DNA from: an uncultured Desulfomonile sp.
GTDB taxonomy: Bacteria; Desulfobacterota; Desulfomonilia; Desulfomonilales; Desulfomonilaceae
Direction: 5' to 3'
DNA length: 64,000 bases
Assembly: GCA_903952205.1 (NCBI GenBank)
Contig: CAJBEZ010000015.1
Coordinates: 1-64,000 of the forward strand
The notes under the pieces are model-generated. The model made no database searches and was not told where the DNA came from. It saw nothing but the letters and a program-made list of their open reading frames with translations. Within the stretch, counting starts at the first letter, position 1; each line of letters opens with the position of its first letter. Both the position numbers and the translations under genes were made by a program. This document shows, one piece after another, positions 20,287-62,758 of this stretch.

Positions 20287-22149
20287 ATGGCTAATCTTCT
20301 CGTTGATGAGCGAGACGCTAAATTTGTGCTCTACGAGCAACTGAACATCGAAGAACTTTGCGAAGCTGAAACTTATTCCGAATTTTCCAGAGAAATGTTC
20401 GACATGGTGTTGGAGGCAGCGCAAAAACTGGCGGAGAAAGAACTGGCACCAACCAATGTAGAAGGTGATACGGTAGGAGTAAAACTGGAAAATGGAAATG
20501 TTTCTGTTCCACCTTCCTTCCATTCCGCCTACCAGAAATACTGTGAGGGTGGCTGGGCGGCCTTACCCATATCACCCGATCACGGTGGCCAGGGTTTCCC
20601 CAACGTCATGTACATCGCTACTATGGAGTTGTTCGTATCAGCCAATCAATCCCTGATGATGTATCCCGGCCTTACCATTGGTTCCGCCAGGTTGGTGCAG
20701 CTTTATGGTTCGGAAGAACAACAACGCATGTATATGGACAAAATGTACACTGGTGAGTGGTGTGGCACTATGTGTCTCACTGAACCTCAGGCGGGAAGTG
20801 ACGTAGGCGCGTTGAGAACAAAGGCGGTCAAGAGACCGGATGGGACATATTCGATTTCCGGTGGAAAGATTTTTATCTCCGCAGGTGATCACGACCTGAC
20901 AGAGAACATCATTCACATGGTACTGGCCAGGATAGAAGGCGCTCCGGCAGGCACCAAGGGAATCAGCATCTTCATAGTTCCTAAGTTCCGTTATGACGAT
21001 GCCGGAAATCTTGTAGACAACGACGTTTCAACTATGGCCGTTGAAAAGAAGATGGGGATTCATGGGTCATCAACATGCGCACTGAATTTTGGAGAGAAGG
21101 ATAATTGTATTGGCTATCTTCTCGGAGAAGAAAATCAGGGCATGAAGATCATGTTCAACATGATGAACGAAGCCAGGCTTTCTGTCGGTGTTCAGGGACT
21201 GGCTCAAGCCAGCACCGCGTACATGCACGCGCTTAAATACGCAAAAGAACGATTTCAGGGTCCTGAGATCTCAACCATGAAGGACCCAACCGCTCCCAAA
21301 GTTCCCATCATCCAGCATCCTGATGTCAGGAGAATGCTGATGTGGATGAAGAGCGTTACTGAAGGTATAAGGGCCTTACTTTATTACGCAGCGTATTGTG
21401 AGGACAGGATTCATGCAGCGAAAACTCCCGAAGAATCAGCCAAATACCAAGGCTTTCTGGACATTCTCATACCGATATGCAAGGCGTGGGGTTCTGACAT
21501 GGGGTTCAGGGTCACGGAACTGGCGATTCAGGTTCACGGTGGATACGGTTTTTGCCGAGAGTATCCAGTTGAACAATTCATGAGGGATTGCAAAATAGCC
21601 TCAATTTACGAAGGAACCAACGGGATACAGGCCCTCGATCTGGTTGGTCGAAAAATAGGATACAAACAGGGCCTTCTTTTTAAAAGTATCGTTGCAGAGA
21701 CAGGCGCATTGATAAAATCCGCCAAAAAGAATTACCGATTAAAAGATATAGTGGAACCATTCGAAACCGCAAGAAATCATCTTATCGAGGTCACACGCTA
21801 CTTCGGTCTCAAGAGTATCACTGAAGACTTCATGACTCCAATCCTTTACGCTAGCCCTTATCTTGAACTTTTTGGCGATGTTGCGGTTGGGTTCATGTTG
21901 TTGTGGCAGGCAGTAGTAGCCGACAGACGACTGGAAGAGCTATATGGGGATGCTAAGGCCGACACCGAGGAGAAGAAGGCCGAGTTGTTGAAATCCAACA
22001 GGAGCGCAGCCTTTTATCGAGGTAAAGTGGCTTCCGCCGAATTCTTTGCAAACACCATACTTTCTTTGGCCTCGGGCAAAGCGAGGGCAATCATGAGCGG
22101 AGAACGGTCCGCTATAGATCTTCCCGAAGAATCTTTTGCGTTAGTCTAA
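20287..22149 (+). CDS. Long-form acyl-CoA dehydrogenase (FadE/DmdC-like)
   Basis: 620 residues, the long acyl-CoA dehydrogenase form with a C-terminal extension beyond the usual 380-400. FAD/substrate motifs: CLTEPQAGSDVGALRTKA (about 163-180), SGGKIFISAGDHDLTENI, IHGSSTCALNFG and the catalytic-base region IYEGTNGIQALDLVGRK. Family members oxidise straight-chain acyl-CoA or 3-methylmercaptopropionyl-CoA, passing electrons to ETF. First gene of a three-gene operon with thiolase and FadB homologues, which points to fatty-acid beta-oxidation here. Confidence 0.92.
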   Translation: MANLLVDERDAKFVLYEQLNIEELCEAETYSEFSREMFDMVLEAAQKLAEKELAPTNVEGDTVGVKLENGNVSVPPSFHSAYQKYCEGGWAALPISPDHGGQGFPNVMYIATMELFVSANQSLMMYPGLTIGSARLVQLYGSEEQQRMYMDKMYTGEWCGTMCLTEPQAGSDVGALRTKAVKRPDGTYSISGGKIFISAGDHDLTENIIHMVLARIEGAPAGTKGISIFIVPKFRYDDAGNLVDNDVSTMAVEKKMGIHGSSTCALNFGEKDNCIGYLLGEENQGMKIMFNMMNEARLSVGVQGLAQASTAYMHALKYAKERFQGPEISTMKDPTAPKVPIIQHPDVRRMLMWMKSVTEGIRALLYYAAYCEDRIHAAKTPEESAKYQGFLDILIPICKAWGSDMGFRVTELAIQVHGGYGFCREYPVEQFMRDCKIASIYEGTNGIQALDLVGRKIGYKQGLLFKSIVAETGALIKSAKKNYRLKDIVEPFETARNHLIEVTRYFGLKSITEDFMTPILYASPYLELFGDVAVGFMLLWQAVVADRRLEELYGDAKADTEEKKAELLKSNRSAAFYRGKVASAEFFANTILSLASGKARAIMSGERSAIDLPEESFALV

Positions 22150-22169
22150 TCTTCTATGGAGCCATTAAT

Positions 22170-23375
22170 ATGAAAGCTAGAAAAGTAGTCTTAATTGACG
22201 CTATCAGAACGGCATTCGGTCGAGCGGGTGAAAAGGGTGTTTTCTGGAACACTCGAGCGGATGACATGGTGGTGAAGGTCATTAGGGAGTTGATGAGAAG
22301 AAACCCGAAAGTAAAGCCGGAAATGATCGAAGAAAACGCATGGGGGGTTTTTTGTCAGGAAGGCGATCAGGGGCTTACACTCGGCAGAACATCTGCGCTG
22401 CTTGCCGGATTGCCTGTGACCGTAGCCGGATATTCAATCGACCGCATGTGCGCTGGTGGAATGAGCGCTCTTACATCCGCCGCTTCCGAAATAGCCTTGG
22501 GCGCTTGCGATGTGGCCATAGCCGGCGGCGTTGAACATATGGGGCATCACCCAATGGGGTCCACCGCTGATCCTAACCCACGATTCGTGACAGACAAGCT
22601 CGTCGACCAGAGCGCTTTGTCGATGGGGGCAACGGCAGAAAATCTACATGACATGTTTCCTCACATTACCAAAGAAATGGCTGATAATTACTCAATGTTA
22701 TGTCAAACAAATGCCGACAACGCTGTCAAGTCCGGTAAGATCAGGGAAATGATTGTCCCTATGACAGTGTATACCAAAGGTGGTTGGGCGGTAGCTGATA
22801 AAGATGAACAACCCCGCCCCGAAACTACGTTGGAAGGCCTTGCCAAACTTCGCACGCCGTTCAGAGTGATGGGAAAAGTAACGGCGGGTAACTCTTCAGG
22901 TTTGAACGATGGAGCGGCTGGAGCTCTTCTTATGACCCTTGAAAAAGCTGAGGAGTTGGGGCTAGAGCCCAAGATGGAGCTGAAATCATTCGCGTATGCA
23001 GGGGTCAAGCCGGAAATCATGGGAATTGGACCGATTCCCGCTACTCATAAGGCGCTCAAGGTCGCTGGTTTAAGTATAGAGGACGTTGGCTTGATAGAGT
23101 TAAACGAGGCCTTTGCTGTTCAAGCTGTGGCGTTTATGGAAGAATTTGGTCTTACTTTTCCCACTGACCCGCGATTGAACATTTATGGAGGCGCAATAGC
23201 CTACGGACATCCACTTGCATCGTCCGGGGTCAGATTGTCTCTTCATCTGATGCATGGATTCAAGGAACATCCGGAAGTAAAGTATGGCTTAACCACGATG
23301 TGCGTCGGTTTGGGCCAGGGTGGCGCCGTAATCTGGAAGAATCTCCAGAGAGACGGCAAAAAGGAAAAGAAATAA
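22170..23375 (+). CDS. fadA: Acetyl-CoA acyltransferase (thiolase, FadA/FadI-like)
   Basis: 401 residues. Thiolase motifs: nucleophile Cys94 in DRMCAGGMSA, N-E-A-F-A (about 313), the H-P-L-A-S-S-G box in place of the usual G-H-P-x-G-x-S-G, and a second catalytic cysteine in MCVGLGQGGA. It cleaves 3-ketoacyl-CoA to acetyl-CoA and a shortened acyl-CoA. It lies 20 bases after the acyl-CoA dehydrogenase and 49 before the FadB-like gene, consistent with a FadE-FadA-FadB operon and a trifunctional complex with the latter. Confidence 0.94.
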   Translation: MKARKVVLIDAIRTAFGRAGEKGVFWNTRADDMVVKVIRELMRRNPKVKPEMIEENAWGVFCQEGDQGLTLGRTSALLAGLPVTVAGYSIDRMCAGGMSALTSAASEIALGACDVAIAGGVEHMGHHPMGSTADPNPRFVTDKLVDQSALSMGATAENLHDMFPHITKEMADNYSMLCQTNADNAVKSGKIREMIVPMTVYTKGGWAVADKDEQPRPETTLEGLAKLRTPFRVMGKVTAGNSSGLNDGAAGALLMTLEKAEELGLEPKMELKSFAYAGVKPEIMGIGPIPATHKALKVAGLSIEDVGLIELNEAFAVQAVAFMEEFGLTFPTDPRLNIYGGAIAYGHPLASSGVRLSLHLMHGFKEHPEVKYGLTTMCVGLGQGGAVIWKNLQRDGKKEKK

Positions 23376-23424
23376 AAACACCATTCTGAATAATCCAGTG
23401 CAATTCATATAGAAAGGAAACGTC

Positions 23425-25476
23425 ATGGCTGAAGCGCACACCTTATTCCACACGACCTACTACAATTCTCGTGTTGGCAAGATAGCGATAGTCACCATGG
23501 ACAATGGTGAGGATTACAAGAAGCCCAACACGTTCGGCGAGCACGCCCTAGCTTCTTTGCATAAAGCGGTAAGCAGGATACAAGCTGACAAAGAAGTGAA
23601 GGGAATGATGCTTTGTGGCAAACACTATATTTTCGCTGCCGGAGCTGATCTCATGCAGGTCCCTTTCATTAACACGTTTGAGCAGGGACGTAGCATAGGA
23701 GCCGCTGGTCACGCCGCAATGAAACGAATAATGGACCTCAAGGTACCGACATTGGCGGCTATTAACGGAGCCGCACTTGGAGGAGGACTCGAGATCGCCT
23801 TGTATTGCGATTACAGGACTGTCTCTAAATCGGTTCCCGCCATAGCCTTTCCGGAATGCTTTCTGGGATTGATTCCAGGCTGGGGCGGATCTTCTCTGAC
23901 CCCGAGGCTCATCGGTCCGGAGAAAGCCCTTGAGGTCATAATCTATAACCCTATGAACCAGAACCGGATGCTCGATGGGACCAAGGCTTTTCAAATCGGT
24001 CTTGCGGACAGGCTTTTCGAATCGGTTGAGTTTTTTGATGAGTCTCTCTCTTTGTTGGAAGACATAATTGAAGGCAAGACGCAGATTGAGAGAAAACCGC
24101 CTGATATGTCAAAGCTAAAAGCTAGTCTGGACGCTGCAAGAAACTTCTTGGACATGAGGGTTCATGGCGCCGCTCCCGCTCCGTATCGCGCCCTGGAACA
24201 AATTGAGTACGCCTGTGATCTCAGTCACTCCATTGAAGATTGTTTCGCAGGGGAAGATCGAGCTCTAGGTGATCTCATAAAGAGCCGACAGTGCAAAGCT
24301 GGCGTTTATAGCTTTGATCTTGTGCAGCGCCGTGCCAAGAAACCGGTTGGGAAGCCCAAGGACATCAGGGGCCGCTCCATCAAGAAGATCGGTATTATTG
24401 GCGCCGGGCTTATGGCGTCCCAGTTGGCCATGCTCTTTCTCCGTAGATATGGTGTCCCTGTTGTCATGAAGGACATAAAACAGGAATTTCTCGACAAGGG
24501 CTTAGGATACGTCAAGGGAGAACTTAGCGCGTTGGCGAGCAAAGGTAGGCTCACTCAGGCAAAAGCCGATCACTTGTATCACATCCTCATTGGAACCCTT
24601 GACTGGAACGATTTCGCTGATTGCGATTTTGTGATTGAAGCTGTTTTCGAAGAAATGTCAGTGAAGCAGCAGGTGTTCGCACAGGCGGAAGAAGTAGTTT
24701 CTCCCGCTTGTATCCTGGCGACAAACACTTCCAGCCTTTCAGTCACGGAAATGGCGTCGAAGCTCAAAAACCCCGAAAGAGTTGTTGGATTCCATTTCTT
24801 CAATCCGGTTGCGGTCCTGCCGCTGCTTGAAATAATAAAGGGTGACAAAACTGACGATCAGACCCTTGTAACCGCTTTTGACTGCGCCAAAAAACTTAAA
24901 AAGAACGCAATTCTTGTGAAAGACTCTCCTGCGTTTCTGGTGAACAGGCTTCTAACCAAACTTCTTAGCGATTGCTTTGAGATGGTTGATGAAGGGGCGG
25001 ATTTCATGCAGGTAGACGAAGCGGTGCTGTCTCTTGGACTGCCAATGGCGCCGTTTGACCTGCTTGCCTTCGTAGGCACCGCTGTTGCTTTCCATGTCCT
25101 GGAAACCTGCAACAAGGCATGGCCTGATCGTTTTCCGATCAATGACAACCTGAAAAAGATGGTGGACGCTAAAGTCGGCGCAATCTATAACGGGATGGGC
25201 CCGGGGAAATCACTCAATCCAAAAGTCGCTGAAATCTTCAAAAATAGAGCTGACAAGCAGTTCGTCAAGGAAGAAATTGTCGACAGGATTCTGACCAGCC
25301 TGACTCTCGAGATCGACAGGATCCTTCAGGAAAAGGTGGTCTCTGACCCTAAGGATATTGACACAGCCATGATTCTAGGCGCCGGGTGGCCTTTCTTTAA
25401 CGGTGGCATCACCCTGTATCTTGATGTGGTCGGAATTACCCCCAAGGTCTTGCAGAAGGTATTCTTTACATTCTAG
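23425..25476 (+). CDS. fadB: Bifunctional enoyl-CoA hydratase/3-hydroxyacyl-CoA dehydrogenase (FadB/FadJ-like)
   Basis: 683 residues. N-terminal crotonase domain (about 1-290) with the oxyanion motif NGAALGGGLEIALYCDYR and the catalytic Glu in FPECFLGLIPGWGG. Then a Rossmann NAD-binding 3-hydroxyacyl-CoA dehydrogenase (KIGIIGAGLMASQLAMLF, about 312; GFHFFNPVAVLPLLEII; SPAFLVNRLL) and a C-terminal helical domain. It carries out the hydration and second oxidation of beta-oxidation. Slightly shorter than E. coli FadB. The nucleotide-binding loop GLMASQLA differs from the common GLMGSGIA. Last gene of the operon, followed by a strong terminator. Confidence 0.94.
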   Translation: MAEAHTLFHTTYYNSRVGKIAIVTMDNGEDYKKPNTFGEHALASLHKAVSRIQADKEVKGMMLCGKHYIFAAGADLMQVPFINTFEQGRSIGAAGHAAMKRIMDLKVPTLAAINGAALGGGLEIALYCDYRTVSKSVPAIAFPECFLGLIPGWGGSSLTPRLIGPEKALEVIIYNPMNQNRMLDGTKAFQIGLADRLFESVEFFDESLSLLEDIIEGKTQIERKPPDMSKLKASLDAARNFLDMRVHGAAPAPYRALEQIEYACDLSHSIEDCFAGEDRALGDLIKSRQCKAGVYSFDLVQRRAKKPVGKPKDIRGRSIKKIGIIGAGLMASQLAMLFLRRYGVPVVMKDIKQEFLDKGLGYVKGELSALASKGRLTQAKADHLYHILIGTLDWNDFADCDFVIEAVFEEMSVKQQVFAQAEEVVSPACILATNTSSLSVTEMASKLKNPERVVGFHFFNPVAVLPLLEIIKGDKTDDQTLVTAFDCAKKLKKNAILVKDSPAFLVNRLLTKLLSDCFEMVDEGADFMQVDEAVLSLGLPMAPFDLLAFVGTAVAFHVLETCNKAWPDRFPINDNLKKMVDAKVGAIYNGMGPGKSLNPKVAEIFKNRADKQFVKEEIVDRILTSLTLEIDRILQEKVVSDPKDIDTAMILGAGWPFFNGGITLYLDVVGITPKVLQKVFFTF

Positions 25477-26493: not shown

Positions 26494-27408
26494 TTACGCC
26501 GTTTTTTCTAATTCGGACTGCTGCTGGGCCTTGGACGCCGCTTTTTTTGCGGCCTGTTCAGCCTTTATGGTCTGTACCACATTGGCCTGTTTTTCGGGGT
26601 TCGTATACCTGAAAATGAACTGTTTGCTGCAAGCCCACACCGCTGCCTTAGCTGATTCTTCGTTGAGCTTTTCATAATCAACTTCTATACGGTCTCTTAC
26701 CATGGAAACAACATCCTTGGCTTTACGGGTGCAAGCGCCACAATGAATGCAACCCGCGCCGCATATACTTGAAACCACCTTTCCAGAATCCCGGCTGTTG
26801 CATGGCACATAACAAATGGCGTCTTTGGGAATGAGTTCGAGGACCTGCTTTGGACAGGCCTTCACGCAAACTCCGCAACCTGTGCACAAATCAGGATCAA
26901 TCACAGGCATGTTGTCTTTCATGTGAATAGCATGAAATGGGCAAGCCACTTCACAGTCCCCGTAACCGACACATGCGAATGTGCACTCATACGGACCGCC
27001 AAAAGCGATAGAGGCCCCCTGACAGGTGTCAAACCCAACGTATGAGTATTTCTTCTTGACGTTTCCTTCATTTCTGGAACATCGAATCACAGAAATTACT
27101 GGACTAGCGGCGCCGGCCGCCTTTCCAGTGAGGGCAGCCACCTTTTGCGCTACGACATCTTTCCCTGGCGCGCATTTGTTTGGAGGACATGCCGGGTCAG
27201 TAACCACGGCTTCAGCATAGGATTCGCAACCTGCAAAACCGCACGCTCCACAATTTGCGCCAGGCAAACATGCTCGAACAGCTTCTATCTTTGGATCAAT
27301 CTTGACAGCAAATTTCTTGGCGGCTAAAGCCAATACCAATCCGCACAAAAGGCCAAAAATTGCAAAGAAAACTGTTCCCATAAGAGCTATGCGCCAAACA
27401 TCTTCCAT
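26494..27408 (-). CDS. rnfB: Rnf complex subunit RnfB, ferredoxin-type
   Basis: 304 residues. N-terminal membrane helix (FFAIFGLLCGLVLALAAKKF), then the Fe-S domain CLPGANCGACGFAGCESYAEAV, then ferredoxin-like clusters CTGCGVCVKACP and CIHCGACTRKA plus a degenerate-looking CTFACVGYGDCEVACP region. RnfB accepts electrons from reduced ferredoxin and passes them into the complex. The C-terminus is short and alanine/lysine-rich, without the long extension of some proteobacterial forms. Ribosome-binding site AGAGGTGA. Last gene of rnfCDGEAB. Confidence 0.95.
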   Translation of the reverse strand: MEDVWRIALMGTVFFAIFGLLCGLVLALAAKKFAVKIDPKIEAVRACLPGANCGACGFAGCESYAEAVVTDPACPPNKCAPGKDVVAQKVAALTGKAAGAASPVISVIRCSRNEGNVKKKYSYVGFDTCQGASIAFGGPYECTFACVGYGDCEVACPFHAIHMKDNMPVIDPDLCTGCGVCVKACPKQVLELIPKDAICYVPCNSRDSGKVVSSICGAGCIHCGACTRKAKDVVSMVRDRIEVDYEKLNEESAKAAVWACSKQFIFRYTNPEKQANVVQTIKAEQAAKKAASKAQQQSELEKTA

Positions 27409-27459: not shown

Positions 27460-28422
27460 TTAGAATATCGACAATCCCGAGAAACCAAGAAATGACAACG
27501 CAAACAGGCCCGCCACAACGAACGCTATAGGAAGACCTCGAAAAACCGCTGGGACTTTGCACAATTCAAGTTTCTCTCTGACGCAAGCCATCAAGAATAA
27601 CGCGAGAGCAAATCCAAGGCCAGCCCCCAATCCAAGGATCAGACTTTCCATGGGACCATTTCCACTGTCCGCGTTAATCAAGGGAACGGCAAGAATAATA
27701 CAGTTTGTAACTATCAGTACCAGGAATACACCCAGTTTCTTGAAAAGATAGGGATTGACCTTTCTCAAGATGGTATCCACCGCCTGAACAAAAATAGCCA
27801 CTGTCCCAATAAATACAATAATTTTCAAGAAACCCAAATGGAGCGGCTGGAGGACAAAAGTCAATAAAGCCCAGCACATTATTGCGCTTAATACCATGAC
27901 TATGGTGAAGGTTATTCCCATTCCGATAGATGTTTCTTTCTTCTGTGAGACGCCAAAGAATATGCAAAGACCCAAATACTTTGTGAAAACAAAGTTGTTT
28001 ATCAACATGGCTCCAAGGAATATCGTAAAAAGGATTTGGCCCTGGCTCTTTTTTACCATGAACATTACATTTCCCATGACCTTACCTTCAGATGTGACGT
28101 CCTTTGCCGTGACTTCATATTCACTTGAAAGATTAAGAGGTTCTCTGAATCTAATTAGGGCCGAAATCCTCTTAGCGTCGAGGGTCACCGACTCTACAGG
28201 CAATTGGATGTCGGGATCAGTTTTCTCGGACACCATGAAATTTGCAGTGTTTTTTGCCCATGCTTCATCTACCGGCATACCAAATGAAATCACGATTTCA
28301 TTATCTTTCTTGAATGATCCGGATCCGGTTCCCGCATCCGCAACGCCCAGCGCCATGACTGAGAGAAAGACACAAGACATGACTGTTATTATAGCCAAAT
28401 GTGATAGTTTATACTCTTTCAT
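27460..28422 (-). CDS. rnfA: Rnf complex subunit RnfA with N-terminal signal-anchor and Ig-like domain
   Basis: 320 residues from the ATG at 28422, placed one base after the rnfE stop. Residues about 128-320 are a normal RnfA (about 193 residues, six helices) with both conserved cysteines, C153 in KYLGLCIFFGVS and C241 in VTNCIIL. Before it lies an extra part absent from ordinary RnfA: a hydrophobic segment (residues 8-28, ending VADA like a signal-peptidase site) and a beta-sandwich-like domain (about 40-122) with the SbsA/Big_5 Ig-like pattern (NEIVISFGMPVDEAWA, LDAKRISALIRFREPLN, SSEYEVTAKDVTSEGKV). RnfA normally starts outside the cytoplasm, so the added domain would be extracytoplasmic (inference). 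Confidence 0.93.
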   Translation of the reverse strand: MKEYKLSHLAIITVMSCVFLSVMALGVADAGTGSGSFKKDNEIVISFGMPVDEAWAKNTANFMVSEKTDPDIQLPVESVTLDAKRISALIRFREPLNLSSEYEVTAKDVTSEGKVMGNVMFMVKKSQGQILFTIFLGAMLINNFVFTKYLGLCIFFGVSQKKETSIGMGITFTIVMVLSAIMCWALLTFVLQPLHLGFLKIIVFIGTVAIFVQAVDTILRKVNPYLFKKLGVFLVLIVTNCIILAVPLINADSGNGPMESLILGLGAGLGFALALFLMACVREKLELCKVPAVFRGLPIAFVVAGLFALSFLGFSGLSIF

Positions 28423-28423
28423 G

Positions 28424-29044
28424 TCAGTGGGCTCCTCCCGATGTTGGGATTTTTCCAGTGAGCTTGTATTCAATCCAGTTAAATATCGCCATAATAAAAC
28501 CAATCACGAAAAAACCGCCTGCTGGAAGGACCATTATAAGCAACGGGTTGAACCCTAGAATGTCAAATCCAAAAAGCTGACCAGTCCCAAAGAACTCCCT
28601 GATTGCTCCAATCAGGCAGAGACCAAACAAGAAACCAATCCCCATTCCAAGCCCGTCAAAGAAAGATGGTATTAGTGGTTCTTTTGATGCAAAGAGCTCC
28701 AGTCGAGAAATAATGATCGCAAAAACCACTATCAACTTTACGAACAACTCGACCTGCTTATAGACCTCCGGAGAGATGACCGGTAAGATCATGTCTATGA
28801 CTGTAACCCAAAGCGCAATTACTATGACGTACGCTGGTATTCTTATTCTTGGATGTATGAATGATTTGAATATCGCTACAGTGCAACTGGAAAACACCTG
28901 AACAAAAATTACGGCGAGCCCTAGCATCAAACCGTTTTGCACGGATGTTGTAACCGCAACAGCGGGACACATACTTAGCGCAAGGCGGAAGATAGGATTC
29001 TCAGGTATTAACCCGTTCCAGAGAAGTTGTACGTTCCTGTTCAC
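28424..29044 (-). CDS. rnfE: Rnf complex subunit RnfE, second metal cysteine missing
   Basis: 206 residues, six helices, homologous to RnfE/NqrD: SMCPAVAVTTSVQNGLMLG, LFASKEPLIPSFFDGLGMGIGF and GAIREFFGTGQLFG. RnfE and RnfA together hold an Fe or [2Fe-2S] centre within the membrane, using two cysteines from each in Na-NQR/Rnf. Here the first, C26, is present, but the second is lost: the usual LIVxNCIILGR reads LIVVFAIIISR, with F108-A109 replacing N-C. The DNA of this stretch (28681-28740) is unambiguous. Spacing with its neighbours is tight (12 bases to rnfG, 1 to rnfA). Confidence 0.93.
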   Translation of the reverse strand: MNRNVQLLWNGLIPENPIFRLALSMCPAVAVTTSVQNGLMLGLAVIFVQVFSSCTVAIFKSFIHPRIRIPAYVIVIALWVTVIDMILPVISPEVYKQVELFVKLIVVFAIIISRLELFASKEPLIPSFFDGLGMGIGFLFGLCLIGAIREFFGTGQLFGFDILGFNPLLIMVLPAGGFFVIGFIMAIFNWIEYKLTGKIPTSGGAH

Positions 29045-29056
29045 TTTTTACCTCCG

Positions 29057-29965
29057 CTAAAACGCAATACTTAATTGTTCTTTTCTTATAGCCTCGTCCA
29101 ATATCTCCAGCCGTTTTACGAATTTTTGCACCGTGTTTACGACTCCCTTGGTCAGGGCTCGGCTGGAAATTGTGGCTCCAGTTAGAGCGTAAATGTCATC
29201 GTTTAGGTGTTTTGTTTTGATTTCTTTGACCTGTTCAGCGGTTAGTCCCTTTTGCTTTGCCTTGACCGGATCCAACGACAACGCGTAATCAGCAGGCAAG
29301 GGTTCCTTAACCACACTGAGTTTCTTTATTAAATCCAGCGTTTTTCCGACAAATTGGTTTCTGAAAAAGTCTTTCTGGATCTCTGCGCCAAGACCGGGAT
29401 CTTCTTCAGAATAAGTAACAGCGACCCCACTAACTGTGAAATCGGGGGTCAACGACACCATCAATTTTATGAAAGTCTTGAAACCCTGTATCACTCCTGG
29501 GACTACATAACTGAGTCGTTTACCTCCACGGTCAGCCACAAATATGGTCTGAGCCCAGACCGATTTCGAGCCCTTTGGCAATGCCCCGTTTATGATGTTG
29601 TCCCTGTTGGCCTGATCAGCGAGTGACGATATTGAAGCGTCAATCGGAATTACGCGAACGGGCTTCCCCGAAAGATCAAGTTCCACGAGGACCACCTTAT
29701 CACCCTTTAATGGCAGCACGTAACCTAATGAGGTCTCACCCTGGGGTGAGGTGATTACATAGCGATAAACCGGAAAGATCTTCAAATCATCAGGCGCCTT
29801 TTCGTCAGATCCAAAGCCAAGCAGTCCCTGAATGGTTTTCTGCTCTGTCCGTTCTTCATTAAGCTTTCTGGCGTGATCCGTCTTTGCGTAAACAAAACCA
29901 AGTATCAACGAAGCCGCTATGCAGACAGCCGTCAAACTCATTGTAATTTTAAAGATTTCTTTCAT
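29057..29965 (-). CDS. rnfG: Rnf complex subunit RnfG, covalent-FMN binding
   Basis: 302 residues, longer than the usual 180-220. One N-terminal membrane helix (FKITMSLTAVCIAASLILGFVYA), then a large extracytoplasmic FMN-binding domain. The flavinylation motif is near the C-terminus: DIYALTGATISSRALT, where the Thr of T-G-A-T is linked to FMN through phosphodiester by ApbE. The extra length is in the middle, between residues 45 and 200. No apbE is in the window. Ribosome-binding site AGAGGT. Confidence 0.95.
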   Translation of the reverse strand: MKEIFKITMSLTAVCIAASLILGFVYAKTDHARKLNEERTEQKTIQGLLGFGSDEKAPDDLKIFPVYRYVITSPQGETSLGYVLPLKGDKVVLVELDLSGKPVRVIPIDASISSLADQANRDNIINGALPKGSKSVWAQTIFVADRGGKRLSYVVPGVIQGFKTFIKLMVSLTPDFTVSGVAVTYSEEDPGLGAEIQKDFFRNQFVGKTLDLIKKLSVVKEPLPADYALSLDPVKAKQKGLTAEQVKEIKTKHLNDDIYALTGATISSRALTKGVVNTVQKFVKRLEILDEAIRKEQLSIAF

Positions 29966-29982: not shown

Positions 29983-31026
29983 CTATTTAACGGCCGCAAC
30001 TGGAGCGGCCTTGGGGGGAGCAAACCGCTTCGGCTGAAACCATTCATCCAACGCGGGCGTCAAGCAGTTCATAAGAAGTATCGCATAACAAACACCTTCC
30101 GGATAGCCACCCTTTAGGCGTATCAAAACGGTCAGCCCTCCCACACCGAACCCAAACAAAAGCTGCGCTGACTTGAGGGTTGGTGACGTAACGTAATCCG
30201 TGGCCATGTAAAAAGCTCCCAGCATAAGGCCTCCGGACAATACGTGAACCAGGGGGGCGCCGCTGAACCAGGTTTCCCCACCGAAAATCCAGGCTATCAG
30301 AGCCGCAGATCCGAGTGTGGAAACGGGAATATGCCAGGTGATGATTTTTCTACTCATCAGAAACAGGCCACCCAGCAAAATTAATAGAGCGGAAGTCTCC
30401 CCGATACAACCAGGCTTGAAGCCCACAAAAAAGTTCCAATAGATGGTGTCAATTCCGCCAAACTGCTGCACAAGAGCTTTCATGCCGTATTGTTTTACAA
30501 CAGCAAGTGGTGTGGCTGTCGATATGGCGTCCAAGGCGCCGGAGCCCAGAAAAACGTCCCACACGCCTTTTGACAACTGCTGGGGAGGTATCCACGCTGT
30601 AGTTATCGCCACAGGAAAGGACGCCTGTAGAAGAGCCCGACCCACAAGCGCCGGATTCCAGACATTGTAGCCAAGTCCACCCATGAGTTCCTTGGTTATA
30701 AACATAGCGGCTACGGCGCCAATCATCGGTAAATAATATGGAACGCCTGGAGGGATAACGAATGCAAGCAGGATGCCTGTCAAAACAGCGCTTCCATCGG
30801 TAACAGTTACCGAGCGCCCCATTGCCTTCTGTGATATGGCTTCCACAACCACGCACGAAAGCACACTAACCAATGTTATGATCAGGCTTCTAAAACCAAA
30901 ATTATAGATGGATAATATCAAGACCGGCATTAAGCTGGCCGATACAGTCCACATGATCTGGGCGGTGGTGGTCCCTTTTCTTATATGCGGGGATACCGAA
31001 ACAGCCCATTCTGGCTTAGAAGTCAT
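29983..31026 (-). CDS. rnfD: Rnf complex subunit RnfD
   Basis: 347 residues, around nine helices, RnfD/NqrB family, which binds a covalent FMN and contributes to ion translocation. The flavinylation region DAISTATPLAVVKQ is present (family S-x-A-T-P). Opening SVSPHIRKGTTTAQIMWTVSASLMPVL is typical. The ATG at 31026 has no nearby ribosome-binding site; a GGGAGGA lies about 36 bases further up without an in-frame standard start. A 173-base gap, unusually long for this operon, separates it from rnfC. Confidence 0.95.
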   Translation of the reverse strand: MTSKPEWAVSVSPHIRKGTTTAQIMWTVSASLMPVLILSIYNFGFRSLIITLVSVLSCVVVEAISQKAMGRSVTVTDGSAVLTGILLAFVIPPGVPYYLPMIGAVAAMFITKELMGGLGYNVWNPALVGRALLQASFPVAITTAWIPPQQLSKGVWDVFLGSGALDAISTATPLAVVKQYGMKALVQQFGGIDTIYWNFFVGFKPGCIGETSALLILLGGLFLMSRKIITWHIPVSTLGSAALIAWIFGGETWFSGAPLVHVLSGGLMLGAFYMATDYVTSPTLKSAQLLFGFGVGGLTVLIRLKGGYPEGVCYAILLMNCLTPALDEWFQPKRFAPPKAAPVAAVK

Positions 31027-31199
31027 GTTTCTGGAATCTAACGTTTCGATGGTCCCATCCTCCCTTGTATGTAATGGGTCTCAAAATGATTGACCAGTTT
31101 TCCTCTTATAGTAGACAATTCAATTCATGGCGGTTGATCTCAGGTTTTCACAATGGGGTTGGAATGCTGGATCAGCCGCCTGATGGCGCCTCGGCTATT

Positions 31200-32543
31200 T
31201 CAGCCTCTTTTTTTGATAGCTATTTTTGCCAGTCTCGCAAACTGCACCAGGGGCCGTTTTGCGGGACAGACATAAGCGCAACAACCGCATTCAAAACAAT
31301 CAAAGATTCCGAATTTCTCTGTCAAATGTCCCCTTCCTGCTTCAACATAAAGGGCGACTTCCTTTGGGCTGAGTCCCATAGGACAGGCTTCCATGCACCA
31401 ACCACAATGGATGCAAGGACCAAATTCGCCTAGATCAGTCTCCGAACTATTCAGAAATAGAACACCTGAAGTGGTTTTCGTAACCGGCACGTCGAGCGAT
31501 GAAATTGCGAAACCCATCATGGGACCACCGGAAACTATCTTGACAACGTCCTTGGCTCCCCCCAGATAATTCACGACATCCGACAACAGGGTTCCAACCT
31601 TGATTTGAAGGTTGGCTTGTCTATGCAAAGCCCTGCCGGAAAAAGTAGCCACCTTCTCGTAAACCGGCTTCTGCATTGTAGCGGCCTCAAACACGGCCAG
31701 TGTCGTAGAGATGTTCTGCACGATTACACCAACATCGAACGGCAACCCACCTCCGGGGACGGACCTCTTGGTTAGTGAGTAAATGAGTTGCTTCTCGGAC
31801 CCTTGAGGATACTTGACGTCCATACCCTGAACCTTGATTACGTCATCATCTTTGCCGGCCAATTGTTGAGCCGCTTTGTTCATGGTATTAATGGCGTCAG
31901 GCTTGTTCAGTTCGATACCTATTATCCCCTGCTTGATCCCAAGAATTTTCAGGATAATCTTGGCGCCTTCGATTATCTTTTCCGGATATTCGAGCATGAG
32001 GCGGTGATCTGTAGTCAGATAGGGCTCGCATTCAGCGCCATTAAGAACCAATGTATCTATTTTGGCGTTTGGCGGAGGAGACAGCTTAACGAAGGTTGGG
32101 AATCCGGCCCCTCCCATACCAACTATCCCAGCGTTTTTTACCCTAGCCAAAAGCTGTTCACGAGAAAGTTTCCTCCAATCTTCGCTGTCATATTGTCTTG
32201 GAGGGGCTTCTGGATCTCGATCTATTATTACCGCGTCGCATCTTACCATTGTGGGATGAGGTCTTGGTTCTATAGCCTTCACAACTCCTGTGACGCTGCT
32301 GTGAATGGAAGCGCCCAGAGCCTTTTCCACGACCGCGATTTCCTCACCTTCCTGAACTTCCTGTTTCTTTTTTACAGTTGGTTTGGCAATAGCTCCAAAA
32401 TGCATGGACAATGGCAGTACAACCTGGCTGGGAGGGGGCATAACCTCGATCGCCAGGCCCTCAGTCAACTCTTTGTGTTCATCGGGATGAATCCCACCTT
32501 TAGCAAATGTAGTTCCGGCCATAGTACCTCTTGCTTTTGTCAA
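31200..32543 (-). CDS. rnfC: Rnf complex subunit RnfC
   Basis: 447 residues. NADH/FMN-binding NuoF-like region (VGMGGAGFPTFVKLSPP, VLNGAECEPYLTTDHRLMLE, GVIVQNISTTLAVFEA) followed by two [4Fe-4S] motifs CIHCGWCMEACP and CFECGCCAYVCPAKRP. RnfC is the soluble NADH-interacting subunit. Short C-terminus without long Ala/Lys repeats. First gene of the minus-strand operon rnfCDGEAB, the clostridial-type order. Confidence 0.95.
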   Translation of the reverse strand: MTKARGTMAGTTFAKGGIHPDEHKELTEGLAIEVMPPPSQVVLPLSMHFGAIAKPTVKKKQEVQEGEEIAVVEKALGASIHSSVTGVVKAIEPRPHPTMVRCDAVIIDRDPEAPPRQYDSEDWRKLSREQLLARVKNAGIVGMGGAGFPTFVKLSPPPNAKIDTLVLNGAECEPYLTTDHRLMLEYPEKIIEGAKIILKILGIKQGIIGIELNKPDAINTMNKAAQQLAGKDDDVIKVQGMDVKYPQGSEKQLIYSLTKRSVPGGGLPFDVGVIVQNISTTLAVFEAATMQKPVYEKVATFSGRALHRQANLQIKVGTLLSDVVNYLGGAKDVVKIVSGGPMMGFAISSLDVPVTKTTSGVLFLNSSETDLGEFGPCIHCGWCMEACPMGLSPKEVALYVEAGRGHLTEKFGIFDCFECGCCAYVCPAKRPLVQFARLAKIAIKKRG

Positions 32544-32645
32544 CGCCCGGCTAGCATATTCCGTCCAGTCTCCTGAAATCCCATCTATTCATAGACCTCT
32601 GGACGGTATCCGGATGCGTTCTGTATCATCTTATATTCTTGATTA

Positions 32646-57163: not shown

Positions 57164-60100
57164 ATGGATGAAAGAACTGTCACGACCTCGGACAAAGAAG
57201 CTGTTTCCAAAGGGAAGCCAGCCATTCCTGCTGACATATCAACCCTTTCTTCCAGTGAACTACAGAAACTGGTTCACGAACTCTATATCCGTCAGGAATA
57301 CATGGAAGCTAAGACTAAGGAAATGGGCATATTTAGGGATAAATATCTTAACCTGTATGACTCTGCTCCGGTTGGTTACCTTACGGTCAGTAAAGGGTGC
57401 AACATTCTGGAGGCGAATTTAACGGCGGCTAGTCTGCTGGGCATGGGACGCGATGAACTGATAGGTCAGTCTATGTACTCCTTGATTTCTGAGGAAGACA
57501 AAGATTTGTTTTTTGAACTCCTGATGGCTGTTTTCAGAAGTCAGTCTCCGACGACATGTGAACTCAAACTAAAAAAAACTGATAAAACTGAATTTATTGC
57601 AGAACTCCGGGGCATTTCTGAAAAGAGCGCTAATGGCCAATATGACAGGTTCAAAGTAATTCTTTCCAATATCACTAAACGCAGGCAATCGGAAATATTA
57701 CAACGGAAACTCAGGGATAATCTTGAGTCACTATGGGAATTGCCAAAAACCCAACAAACTGATTTGAAAGTCCTCGCTGACCACGTGCTTGAAGAAATCA
57801 AGCGAATCAGTGAAAGCAGATACGCTTTTTATGGTTTTATAGACGACGAAGAAACCGAGATGGAAATCTATTCATGGTCTAGAGAAGCCATGAATCAGTG
57901 TAAAATTGTTGATAAACTTGAAAAGTTTCCTATTCCAACATCCGGAATATGGGGGGACGCAGTAAGGAAACGTCAAAGCATCGTGGTTAACGATTATAAT
58001 GAAAATCATGAATGTAAAGTTGGATTGCCCCAAGGTCATGTTGAGCTTACAAGGGTTGTTTCCGTCCCAGTTTTTAGTAGAGGTAAAATTGTGGCAGTAG
58101 GAGCGGTTGCCAATAAGGAATCTGAATACACAGAGGATGATGTCAAACAACTTGAGGTGTTTCTTTCCCATGCCCAGATAATATCCAACCAGATTCGATT
58201 GCAGGAGGCGCTTAGTAAGAGCGAGACAAAATTCCGTACCGTGGCTGATTTCACTCATGACTGGGAATACTGGATCAATCCAGACGGGGCATTAATCTAT
58301 GTCTCTCCGTCTTGTGAAAGAATTACGGGATACGATCCTGACGAATTTATTAATGATCCAGGGCTGCTCGTGAAAATTGTCCATCCTGAAGACCTTTCGC
58401 TTGTGGGCGAACAACTTAAATCGATTGATTCCGGTCCCCCGCTCCAATGTGAGTTTCGGATTGTTAGCAGTAAGGGGGAGACGCGTTGGATCGGCCAAGT
58501 GTCGCAAACCGTTTATAACCTAGACGGAGCCTGGTTGGGGCGGCGAGTCAGCAATCGCGACATTACTAAACGTAAGCTAGCGGAGTTGGATTTACGGGCA
58601 AGCGAAGAAAAATTTAGCAAGGTCTATTTATTAAATCCGGATTCCATGTCAATCACAACGCTTGCTGATGGCAAATTTGTTTCTGTAAATGACGGATTCG
58701 AGCGGATCCTGGGTTTTAAGGAACGGGAAGTTATAGGTAAGACTTCAGCGGAACTGAATCTATGGGGTGACACTGAAGACCGGCAGAAAATTTCAGAGGC
58801 TCTCAAAAAAGAGGGGAGAATTTATAACCTTGAGACTCGTGTTCGTACCAGGAATGGAGATATACGATATGGGCTTATGTCATGCTCCATCATCGAACTC
58901 AACGGGGAACAACATATACTAACTATTGGAAGGGACATCACTGACAAGAAGGCCGCTGAAGATGCGTTGCGGGCGAGTGAAGGGCGTTGGCAGTTTGCCC
59001 TCGAAGGCGCCAGAGATGGTGTTTGGGATTACAACCTCACGACTAATGAGGTTTTTTACTCTAGGCAGTGGAAGGCCATGTTGGACTATGAAGAACATGA
59101 AATCGGAAATACCCTAGACGAATGGGTAAACAGACTTCATCCCGAAGACAAAAGACGCCTCAAGGAAATTAAGGACAAATTTTGCGCCACTGATATGACA
59201 TCTTATGAAGCTGAATTTCGAATGCTGGGTAAGAACGGCGCCTATAAATGGATTCTAAGCAGAGGCAAATCCACAGAGTGGACAGACGATGGCAGGCCTT
59301 CGAGATTTATCGGCACCCATGCGGACATCACCACCCGGAAGCTGATGGAGGAGGCCCTGCGCGAACGTGAACGTGAATGGACTACGTTGATAAACAACCT
59401 CCCGGGATTCGTGTATCGTTGCGCCAACGATCGTTACTGGACCATGGACTATATAAGTCACGGGTGCAAAGAAGTTACTGGGTATGCTCCAGATGATTTC
59501 ATTGGAAACAAAAGCCTTTCATTCAATGACATTGTAGATCCAAATTATCGTGAACCCCTTTGGGAAAAATGGCAGGAAATCCTTGCCCACAATAGTGTTT
59601 TTGAGGAAGAGTATCCAATAATTACCAGAGGAGGAGAGACACGTTGGGTATGGGAAAGAGGGCGGGGAATCTTCTCGGATGACGGGCGCCTACTTTTCCT
59701 GGAAGGATTCATTACAGACGTCACTGAGCGCAAGAAAATTCAAGAAGATCTTCGAGAAAGCCATGAGAATTTCCGAACCTTCTTTGAATCGATTGATGAC
59801 GTTATAGTGGTTGGCGCCCCAGATGGTAAAATAATGCACTCAAATTCGGCTTTGACCCGCAAACTGGGCTACAGTCGCGAAGAAATAGAGAACATGCACG
59901 TGCTAGATCTGAACTGTAGATCTCAACGGCAGGAAGCGGAAACAATCTTCTCCGATATGTTTACAGGCCATAGAACGAGTTGTCCGCTTCCACTGGAGAA
60001 AAAGGATGGAACGCTGCTTCCGTCGGAAACGCGAGTTTGGTTTGGTAAATGGAGCGGGGTGGACGCAACATTTGGTATTTGCAAAGACCTCAGCAAGGAG

Positions 60101-62758
60101 CAGGACGCGCTACAAAGATTTGACAGGCTCTTTGAATTTAACCCTAACCCTCTTGCAGTCAACAGTACGGAGGATGGAAGAATTGTCTTGGTAAACGAAG
60201 CTTTTCTCTCCACCCTGGGGTTCTCTAGAGATGAAGTCATAGGGATGACAAGCGAAGAACTGGATCTTTTTACTGACCCAGAAGCACAAAGAGAGGTCGC
60301 TACTAGACTTGAGGTTCACGGAGTAATTAGAAATATAGAACTACAGGTAAAAAAGAAGAATGGAGATCTTGTCGAAGGCCTTTTTTCCGGCACGATAATA
60401 GTTATTCAGGAAAGGAAATACCTCCTGACGACTATGCTCGACATCACGGAACGCAAACAAGCGACAGAGGCGCTCAAACAAAGCGAGAAAAACCTAAGGT
60501 CTTTTTTCCAGACTATCTCTGAGTCAGTCTTCCTCATGAAACCCGATGGCGAGATACTTGAGGCTAACGAAACCTTTGCGTCTCGTCTCGGCAAGAATCC
60601 GGAAGATGTCATAGGCCATTGTGTTTTTGACTTCCTGGAACCTGAAACAACTATTAAACGTAGGGGGTGGATTGACGAAATTGTCCTCAGCGGCAAACCA
60701 GTGAGGATTGAGGACAAAAGGCAGAATTCTATCTTGGTTCATAATATCTATCCGATCTTGAATTCTGAAGGGGTTGTGGATCGATTGGCAATTTATGCCA
60801 ACGATGTTACTGCGGCCAGACTATCAGAAACAGCTTTGAGAGAGAGTGAAGCCAGATTCAGGCTCATTGTAGAGGCCGCCAACGAGGGTATATGGTCAAT
60901 GGATGGCAAGTTCAAGACAACTTTCGTCAATCGGAGAATGGCTGATATGCTCGCTTACAGCCCTGATGAAATGCTCGGTCGGACAGTGGACTCGTTCATG
61001 TTTGAAGAAGACTTACCAGATCACAGCGCCAGAATGGCTGGACGTCTCGCAGGAACGAATGAATCCTATGAGCGGCGGTTTAGAAAGAAAAATGGTGAGG
61101 AAATATGGACGCTGGTTTCCGCAACGGCTCTGATAGATGGAAAGCTGGGATTCCAAGGTTCCTTCGCCATGTTCACGGACATAACAGAGCGAAAACGCGC
61201 GGAAGAGGCTCTGACTGAAAGGGAAAGTTATTTGAGAAACCTCTTAATGAGCATGATCAATGGGTTTGTCCTATTCGAGTCTGTGTTTGATGAAAGGGGA
61301 AATTTTCTAAGCTGTAAGTTTATTATGATCAATCAATCTTTTGAAAGAATAACCGGCGTCAAAGGTGAAGACATCATTGGACATTCAATTCATGAAGTAT
61401 GGCCTGAAACTGAGCAGGAATGGATTGAAGCTTTTGGCAGGGTAGCTCTAACTGGAACACCATCCTCTTTTGAGATGTTTCATCATCCCACCAGAAGCCA
61501 TTATTATTGCAACGTATACAGACCGGAGAACAGCAGAAAACGATTTTGCGTAGTTTTTGAAGATATCACTGATAGGGTACGTGTGGCACAAGAAAAGGAA
61601 GCTTTTCAGGCTCAGGTTCTGCAAGCTCAAAAGATAGAAGCCATTGGAACAATGGCAGGGGGCATAGCCCACGATCATAACAATATTGTCCAGGCGATAT
61701 TAGGCTATACGGAACTCGCTATGCAAGATGTAGCCCCGGGAAGTCCGGTTTATTCCAGTCTGGAAAGAGTGTTGGAGGCGGCAAAACGTTCTGGGAACAT
61801 GATGAAGCAGATATTGACCTTTAGTCGCCGATCCACGCCCAAGGTCACTACAATTGATGTCAGTCCGTTGGTGAAGGAAGGACTGAAATTCTTGCAGGCC
61901 GCAATACCATCCACTATCGAAATCAAGGGAAGAATCAAACCTGGTCTAGGGAAGATTCTTGCTGATCCCACGCAAATACATCAAGTTTTGATGAATTTGT
62001 GTATCAACGCTTCGCAAGCCATGAAAAATGGTAAGGGTAAGATTTACGTAGAATTGTCAGAGCTTAATGTTGTAGATAACTGCGTACCGCCGCATCATGA
62101 GATTACACCTGGGAAGTATCTCTTACTGAAGGTTTCTGACACAGGAGTAGGGATTCCAGCAGAGATTTTAGACAAAATATTTGATCCTTATTTCACCACC
62201 AAAGAGTCAGGAGAGGGAACGGGTCTTGGGTTGTCCGTAGTTCATGGAATCGTTCGCAGTTCTAATGGGGTTATAACAGTAGAAAGTACGCCAGGCGCAG
62301 GGTCCACCTTTAATGTGTTTTTCCCTCTTGTGAAAGAACCGATGGATGTTAAACAAGAGTGCGAGACAACTACCATCTTGCCGGGAACTGAGCATATTCT
62401 TTTTGTTGACGATGAAGTTTCACTTCTGGAAATGTATGAACGCCAACTCAAAAGATTGGGCTACCATATAACCGCCGTGGACAATCCCGACGCCGCATTG
62501 GAAATACTATCCCAGCATCCCCAAAAGTTTGATGTGATAGTCGTAGACATGATCATGCCTAAGATGACAGGACTTGAACTTTCAGAGAAAATACGTCTGG
62601 GATGGCCAAACATCCCGATCATCATGTGCACTGGATGGATGCAAGATTTATCTGATGACGATTTAAGGCGAACTGGAATTCGGGCTGTTGTGACTAAACC
62701 TACAAGGAACAATGAAATAGCTGATGCTGTTAGAAAAGTGATGGATCAGAGTCGCTAA
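57164..62758 (+). CDS. Hybrid sensor histidine kinase with ten PAS and one GAF domain
   Basis: 1864 residues, no membrane helices seen. Domains in order: PAS1 (about 60-170), GAF (about 198-346), then nine PAS units of about 120-128 residues each (352-1473), most ending with the D-I/V-T-x-R-K linker. Then HisKA with phosphorylatable His1503 in IGTMAGGIAHDHNN, HATPase with NLCINASQAM (about 1611), DTGVGIP (about 1660) and GTGLGLSVVHG (about 1686), and a receiver domain with Asp1795 in VVDMIMPKMTG. The H-box reads HDHNN instead of HDFNN. Cytosolic redox, gas or ligand sensing is likely but no cofactor can be assigned. No DNA-binding partner gene is adjacent. Confidence 0.93.
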   Translation: MDERTVTTSDKEAVSKGKPAIPADISTLSSSELQKLVHELYIRQEYMEAKTKEMGIFRDKYLNLYDSAPVGYLTVSKGCNILEANLTAASLLGMGRDELIGQSMYSLISEEDKDLFFELLMAVFRSQSPTTCELKLKKTDKTEFIAELRGISEKSANGQYDRFKVILSNITKRRQSEILQRKLRDNLESLWELPKTQQTDLKVLADHVLEEIKRISESRYAFYGFIDDEETEMEIYSWSREAMNQCKIVDKLEKFPIPTSGIWGDAVRKRQSIVVNDYNENHECKVGLPQGHVELTRVVSVPVFSRGKIVAVGAVANKESEYTEDDVKQLEVFLSHAQIISNQIRLQEALSKSETKFRTVADFTHDWEYWINPDGALIYVSPSCERITGYDPDEFINDPGLLVKIVHPEDLSLVGEQLKSIDSGPPLQCEFRIVSSKGETRWIGQVSQTVYNLDGAWLGRRVSNRDITKRKLAELDLRASEEKFSKVYLLNPDSMSITTLADGKFVSVNDGFERILGFKEREVIGKTSAELNLWGDTEDRQKISEALKKEGRIYNLETRVRTRNGDIRYGLMSCSIIELNGEQHILTIGRDITDKKAAEDALRASEGRWQFALEGARDGVWDYNLTTNEVFYSRQWKAMLDYEEHEIGNTLDEWVNRLHPEDKRRLKEIKDKFCATDMTSYEAEFRMLGKNGAYKWILSRGKSTEWTDDGRPSRFIGTHADITTRKLMEEALREREREWTTLINNLPGFVYRCANDRYWTMDYISHGCKEVTGYAPDDFIGNKSLSFNDIVDPNYREPLWEKWQEILAHNSVFEEEYPIITRGGETRWVWERGRGIFSDDGRLLFLEGFITDVTERKKIQEDLRESHENFRTFFESIDDVIVVGAPDGKIMHSNSALTRKLGYSREEIENMHVLDLNCRSQRQEAETIFSDMFTGHRTSCPLPLEKKDGTLLPSETRVWFGKWSGVDATFGICKDLSKEQDALQRFDRLFEFNPNPLAVNSTEDGRIVLVNEAFLSTLGFSRDEVIGMTSEELDLFTDPEAQREVATRLEVHGVIRNIELQVKKKNGDLVEGLFSGTIIVIQERKYLLTTMLDITERKQATEALKQSEKNLRSFFQTISESVFLMKPDGEILEANETFASRLGKNPEDVIGHCVFDFLEPETTIKRRGWIDEIVLSGKPVRIEDKRQNSILVHNIYPILNSEGVVDRLAIYANDVTAARLSETALRESEARFRLIVEAANEGIWSMDGKFKTTFVNRRMADMLAYSPDEMLGRTVDSFMFEEDLPDHSARMAGRLAGTNESYERRFRKKNGEEIWTLVSATALIDGKLGFQGSFAMFTDITERKRAEEALTERESYLRNLLMSMINGFVLFESVFDERGNFLSCKFIMINQSFERITGVKGEDIIGHSIHEVWPETEQEWIEAFGRVALTGTPSSFEMFHHPTRSHYYCNVYRPENSRKRFCVVFEDITDRVRVAQEKEAFQAQVLQAQKIEAIGTMAGGIAHDHNNIVQAILGYTELAMQDVAPGSPVYSSLERVLEAAKRSGNMMKQILTFSRRSTPKVTTIDVSPLVKEGLKFLQAAIPSTIEIKGRIKPGLGKILADPTQIHQVLMNLCINASQAMKNGKGKIYVELSELNVVDNCVPPHHEITPGKYLLLKVSDTGVGIPAEILDKIFDPYFTTKESGEGTGLGLSVVHGIVRSSNGVITVESTPGAGSTFNVFFPLVKEPMDVKQECETTTILPGTEHILFVDDEVSLLEMYERQLKRLGYHITAVDNPDAALEILSQHPQKFDVIVVDMIMPKMTGLELSEKIRLGWPNIPIIMCTGWMQDLSDDDLRRTGIRAVVTKPTRNNEIADAVRKVMDQSR

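Follow-up and report, generated by a model that had tools for sequence, protein, structure and literature searches.

The window analysed here, a stretch of 64 000 nucleotides from an uncultured Desulfomonile sp., carries on its minus strand a complete set of rnf genes (rnfCDGEAB) in the order rnfC-D-G-E-A-B: rnfC (31200..32543, with the start probably at 32522, which gives a product of 440 aa as in homologues), rnfD (29983..31026, 347 aa), rnfG (29057..29965, an enlarged gene of 302 aa), rnfE (28424..29044, 206 aa), rnfA (27460..28422, 320 aa) and rnfB (26494..27408, 304 aa). No second Rnf was found in the genome to which the window belongs (99.99% complete). The C-terminal ferredoxin segment of RnfB appears to be devoid of several cluster cysteines (CGACTRKAKD...) in the window and in the related operon L129; the related operons L128 and L084 keep them. 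Long plus-strand open reading frames antisense to rnf (31065-31433, 31788-32576 and 27896-28558) are probably mechanical and not genes. Also on the plus strand, genes of acyl-CoA dehydrogenase, thiolase and FadB-like type adjoin the operon (20287-25476), pointing to fatty-acid oxidation that would need Rnf for electron balancing; an ORF of 1864 aa is situated further on (57164-62758).

The rnfA gene encodes, in a single open frame, an export leader, an Ig-like domain and the RnfA membrane core. Its ATG (28420-28422) is preceded by a Shine–Dalgarno-like GGAGG (28434..28438, minus strand) 11 bases upstream, and most homologues with the same fusion have a similar GGAGG. A first-pass annotation of this DNA had put the ATG at 28422 directly after the rnfE stop; the position is correct, with one base separating the ATG from the TGA (28424-28426). 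The core (residues 128-320; 27463..28041, minus strand) is intact downstream of the extension and retains the [2Fe-2S] ligands Cys153 and Cys241. Residues 132-317 match Pfam Rnf-Nqr (E 1.4e-50), the closest solved chains are 7zc6_A, 8ahx_A and 9eri_A, and the protein scores 204 bits against TIGR01943 (below the cut-off of 229) and 134 against the nqrE model. Judged by these scores, the window RnfA is a member of the Rnf-Nqr family closer to RnfA than to NqrE.

Among close relatives, dN/dS was about 0.11 in the Ig-like domain, 0.02 in the RnfA core and about 0.57 (0.4–0.6) in the leader. The value for the domain points to a translated sequence under selection, while the leader drifts as a signal peptide would. 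The 320-aa ORF, its conservation and the dN/dS values agree with the first-pass view that the frame is unbroken and that the fusion is no annotation artefact, and we hold the architecture of leader, Ig-like domain and RnfA core to be real with hardly any reservation.

The domain had been described as an SbsA/Big_5-like beta domain at residues 40-122. The assignment stands; the limits have to be moved to residues 32-123 (28054..28329, minus strand). When the N-terminal part of the window RnfA is searched alone, residues 33-107 match Big_5 below Pfam's cut-off (E 0.022–0.025); 27 of the 38 homologous domains match Big_5, with a best E of 1.9e-6, and a profile built from the homologous domains finds the S-layer protein Sap in PDB (E 0.00036). 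The AlphaFold2 model of the whole RnfA is modest (mean pLDDT 67, pTM 0.44). It has eight strands in residues 32-123, where pLDDT per ten-residue block is mostly 74–81. Structure comparison of the modelled domain gave Z 14.7 with SbsC 2ra1 (1.5 Å over 92 residues), Z 14.9 with SbsC 4uic (rmsd 1.9 Å) and Z about 12–13 with Sap, and Foldseek was concordant; the remainder of the model matched RnfA of Acetobacterium woodii with Z 15.1. Thus structure prediction of the extension did yield an Ig-like fold, and on this model residues 32-123 are a beta-sandwich of the Big_5/SbsC type. A chance beta-like sequence was ruled out by fold and conservation.

Two motifs of the domain, PVD and DPDI, are strictly conserved; it has no cofactor motif. 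As no further copy of the domain was present in the window genome at E<=10, no donor protein was identified, and a search of plasmids returned matches to the RnfA core only. The Big_5 domains of SbsC and Sap share fold and sequence pattern with the window domain (Z 12–15), but they are repeats in surface proteins, whereas here a membrane subunit of a respiratory complex carries one copy as a fusion. CopC/PcoC are also exported Ig-like domains (Z 7–9); unlike them, the window domain has no evident copper ligands, and the membrane partner is unrelated. CopC-CopD fusions are a comparable case of an exported Ig-like domain with a membrane partner.

The leader (residues 1-30; 28333..28422, minus strand) is hydrophobic, looks to be of the signal peptidase I type, and ends in V-A-D-A; A-x-A-like sites end the leaders of Desulfomonilaceae generally. 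A lipobox cysteine at the leader end is absent in the window and in the other Desulfomonilaceae, and in Desulfobacterales a lipobox Gly-Cys closes the leader at the same position in all 27 loci (26 by pattern; L047 has LTTGC). RnfA and RnfE are described as having opposite (inverted) membrane topologies, and the first RnfA helix must be N-out (Saaf et al. 1999, cited in PMC12174285). Leaders of both types place the mature N-terminus outside, consistent with these opposite topologies. The leader sequences thus make it almost certain that the Ig-like domain is exported, as the first-pass annotation had proposed; its term 'signal-anchor' should be given up in favor of a cleavable signal peptide, since the leader, by its sequence, is probably cleaved.

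Among RnfA homologues, the extension was present in 17 of 17 further genomes examined from the same family, Desulfomonilaceae (65–91% whole-protein identity; a contig end truncates one copy). Scanning named genomes with the domain only found 42 named loci, including Desulfobacterales, Desulfonema magnum and two further families; at each of the 42, RnfA continues in frame after the domain. A survey of 395 genomes of the phylum had an RnfA match at E<=1e-20 in 148, and in 13 of these, from five families, RnfA was fused. The score gap was clean: at least 287 bits for fused RnfA, at most 173 bits for the rest. Phyla beyond Desulfobacterota were covered by a single pattern scan, a method that can miss divergent copies (as it did with those of groups f17 and f93), and the records it returned were labelled as Desulfobacterota or Deltaproteobacteria relatives.

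In a tree computed from the RnfA core only, with the N-terminal extension left out, all 34 fused rows formed one clade with support 100/100, whose stem is long (2.1 changes per site). By sequence conservation, the extension is old and selected. Operon L129 (genome G183, group f17) is fused, whereas other sampled members of its family carry canonical Rnf, which suggests transfer or differential loss. In D. magnum (L069) rnfC is apart from rnfD: a good RnfC match is located some 20 kb upstream, and the ORF before rnfD is methyltransferase-like. We found no description of an N-terminal extension of RnfA in open-licence papers.

The membrane partner of RnfA has changed as well. The RnfA/E cluster of Clostridium tetanomorphum is ligated by RnfA Cys25 and Cys113 and RnfE Cys26 and Cys109, which were called invariant (PMC9588780); in A. 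woodii the RnfE ligands are Cys25 and Cys108 (PMC11889175). The window RnfE retains Cys26, and Phe108-Ala109 (28718..28723, minus strand) replace the canonical Asn-Cys, so that one of the four cysteine ligands of the [2Fe-2S] cluster is lost at RnfE 109. Both substitutions, N108F and C109A, occur in 44 of 44 fused operons; L128 and L129, the most distant pair, have them too. Canonical RnfE has the cysteine in 14 of 14 sequences and in 38 of 39 more (the 39th is without a readable motif), and two Nqr-like copies carry it too. The alignment around residues 108-109 is free of gaps (LIVVFAIIISRLELFAS in fused versus LIVVNCIILGRAEAFAS in canonical RnfE). RnfA keeps both of its ligand cysteines in 34 of 34; these (Cys153 and Cys241 in the window) and RnfE Cys26 are the three other ligands, invariant in the fused clade. 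From the alignments, the loss of the fourth cysteine ligand in RnfE appears close to certain, and a metal site with three cysteines probably remains in RnfA/E. Open-licence papers contained no match for an unconserved RnfE cysteine other than a review of ApbE.

The half-helices are altered too: the canonical proline at RnfE position 103 is Lys or Arg in all 44 fused operons, Pro107 of RnfA (A. woodii numbers) is Val in 34 of 34, and RnfA Thr110 (A. woodii numbers), a transient Na+ contact in that organism, is Ile or Val in 30 of 34. S24, Q49 and H64 are further RnfE changes invariant in fused operons. Residue 54 of RnfE was considered as a compensating cysteine; it is Cys in 40 of 44 fused operons. 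L033, L128 and L129 lack a cysteine there, so it is not a universal replacement ligand.

A third change affects RnfG. Its length is 298–307 aa in complete fused operons versus about 190–210 aa in canonical ones; among fused genes a few with upstream-extended starts are longer, and two are shorter, the first truncated by a contig end and the second by a late start, while the canonical exceptions are start extensions. Alignment attributes the difference to two inserts: one of about 75 residues follows the stalk, and the other, of about 38, precedes the FMN motif. In the window, these are insert 1 (about residues 58-133; 29567..29794, minus strand), a beta region on the periplasmic side that canonical RnfG lacks, and insert 2 (about residues 217-255; 29201..29317, minus strand). 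For the window RnfG, AlphaFold2 gave a good model (pLDDT 88.5, pTM 0.82), which matches RnfG and NqrC chains and folds insert 1 mostly into beta strands. By eye, insert 1 resembles a partial repeat of the FMN_bind-like segment that follows it. Against the NCBI curated rnfG model the protein scores 72, below the cut-off of 102; low scores of this kind, for rnfA and rnfG alike, may explain why nobody has set the group apart.

Fused RnfA, an RnfG of about 300 aa and RnfE C109A co-occur in every readable fused operon and in no canonical one. What had been noticed as an oddity of RnfA is a genuine fusion, but it does not stand alone: together with the two changes linked to it, it sets a clade of Rnf operons apart. 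Four fused-Rnf genomes (G141, G264, G376 and G394) also have a canonical Rnf (L112-L115) with an RnfB of roughly 700 aa and an adjacent 4-heme cytochrome-like gene; the linkage holds within these genomes, where the RnfG of the canonical operons is also short. Since the fused clade has a single origin on the tree, the linkage counts as one association on one long branch and not as many. We have very little doubt that the fused operons are a distinct clade of Rnf. As the operon is Rnf by gene set and family and lacks the four-Cys site, we read it as a divergent sub-type of Rnf, not a standard one, whose periplasmic module has been rebuilt and whose metal site within the membrane is altered.

The Rnf complexes of A. 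woodii, C. tetanomorphum and Azotobacter vinelandii (9eri, 7zc6 and 8ahx) share with the window operon the six rnf genes, the RnfA core fold, the RnfB/C/D families, the covalent-FMN motif of RnfG and three of the four RnfA/E cysteines. They have four Cys ligands, an RnfG of about 190–207 aa and no Ig-like domain in RnfA, in contrast to the added domain, the RnfG of about 300 aa and the C109A change in the window. Na+-NQR (NqrE, NqrC, NqrD) has a homologous membrane core, and NqrC, which matches the window RnfG model, is also longer than canonical RnfG. However, NqrD keeps the cysteine lost in the window RnfE, NqrE is without an N-terminal domain, the window operon has RnfB and RnfC, and its RnfA core fits the RnfA model far better than the NqrE model; the curated Na+-NQR models all score below their cut-offs (nqrE 134 versus 247.55, nqrD 123 versus 244.85, nqrC 39.5 versus 144). 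Rnf of the Desulfovibrio type with a cytochrome (D. alaskensis) comes from the same phylum and resembles the second Rnf of some fused-Rnf genomes; it differs by canonical RnfA, RnfG and RnfE and a long RnfB, with the 4-heme cytochrome adjacent in L112-L115.

In known Rnf, the RnfD flavin receives electrons from the RnfA/E cluster through RnfG, a shuttle on the periplasmic side whose main contact is in the RnfA/E cavity (PMC11889175, PMC12174285). We propose that, once the leader has been cleaved (and, in Desulfobacterales, the new N-terminus lipidated), the Ig-like domain would stand near the periplasmic entrance of this cavity and pack against the enlarged RnfG; the earlier placing of the domain beside RnfG is upheld here. 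It could then hold or guide the FMN domain of RnfG over a metal site with changed coordination and perhaps changed potential, while the complex would still couple electron transfer between ferredoxin and NADH to ion transport. With distances of RnfC, RnfD and RnfE removed, distances of the Ig-like domain correlated weakly with those of the periplasmic segments of RnfG (0.20–0.33); the same test gave 0.23 with the N-terminal part of RnfC, 0.08 with RnfB and −0.10 with the RnfA core, and the preference for RnfG was not seen inside two subgroups. That the domain braces or guides the enlarged shuttle over RnfA/E is the simplest of the mechanisms considered and the likeliest among them, but a tentative suggestion, somewhat short of probable. 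The explanation as a whole, an Rnf sub-type whose periplasmic half has been rebuilt plus the brace, blends parts of different strength and appears to us evenly poised between right and wrong.

The first-pass annotation had suggested that the domain might gate electron entry or dock a partner. Together with the RnfG insert, it could instead bind a redox protein of the periplasm, a cytochrome for example, so that electrons would also enter or leave Rnf outside. Its periplasmic location and the strict conservation of PVD and DPDI would suit such docking, as would the 4-heme cytochrome of some Desulfobacterota Rnf operons; yet fused operons have no adjacent multiheme cytochrome, the 4-heme gene lies beside the canonical Rnf of the same genomes (L112-L115), and the domain has no cofactor motif, which makes docking unlikely. 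We regard as similarly improbable that leader and domain merely aid insertion of the N-out RnfA into the membrane or its assembly as a scaffold, with no catalytic role, the lipid anchor of Desulfobacterales fixing the domain at the outer leaflet. Cleavable signal peptidase I or lipoprotein leaders would fit an N-out first helix, but canonical RnfA inserts without any extension, and the linked RnfG inserts and the loss of the RnfE cysteine would be left unexplained.

The invariant RnfE substitutions, the half-helix proline changes and the replacement of Thr110 could also be taken to mean that the metal site of RnfA/E has been lost or has degenerated, with electrons following another route or no pumping at all. 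This is very improbable: a dead site would not keep three other ligand cysteines invariant across a deep clade, and the operon is complete and is the sole Rnf of the window genome. Finally, translation from an internal start near residue 122, with the extension not made, could use in-frame ATGs of the window at residues 116, 120 and 122, but it is scarcely credible, and with it an annotation artefact was ruled out by dN/dS (about 0.1 in the domain) and by a start-site survey, in which an ATG near the core start occurred in 8 of 42 homologues and an SD-like site was internal in 7 of 42, whereas 27 of 42 had one before the upstream ATG; the conserved lipobox speaks against it too.

Returning to the sub-type with a brace, one could speculate further that the fused operons form a class of Rnf of their own, where an intramembrane Fe-S site held by three cysteines and a non-Cys or open ligand serves an RnfA-Ig/RnfG module handing electrons to the periplasmic flavin, possibly with another ion specificity or a periplasmic exit of electrons; we consider this conceivable but on balance doubtful. 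The Rnf/Nqr field has still to explain how electron transfer at the RnfA/E cluster is coupled to the movement of RnfG and to ion pumping. The fused clade breaks the ligand invariance stated in PMC9588780, and in it the ligand set of the cluster, the RnfG shuttle and the docking side of RnfA have changed together, with the canonical Rnf of some fused-Rnf genomes as a natural control.
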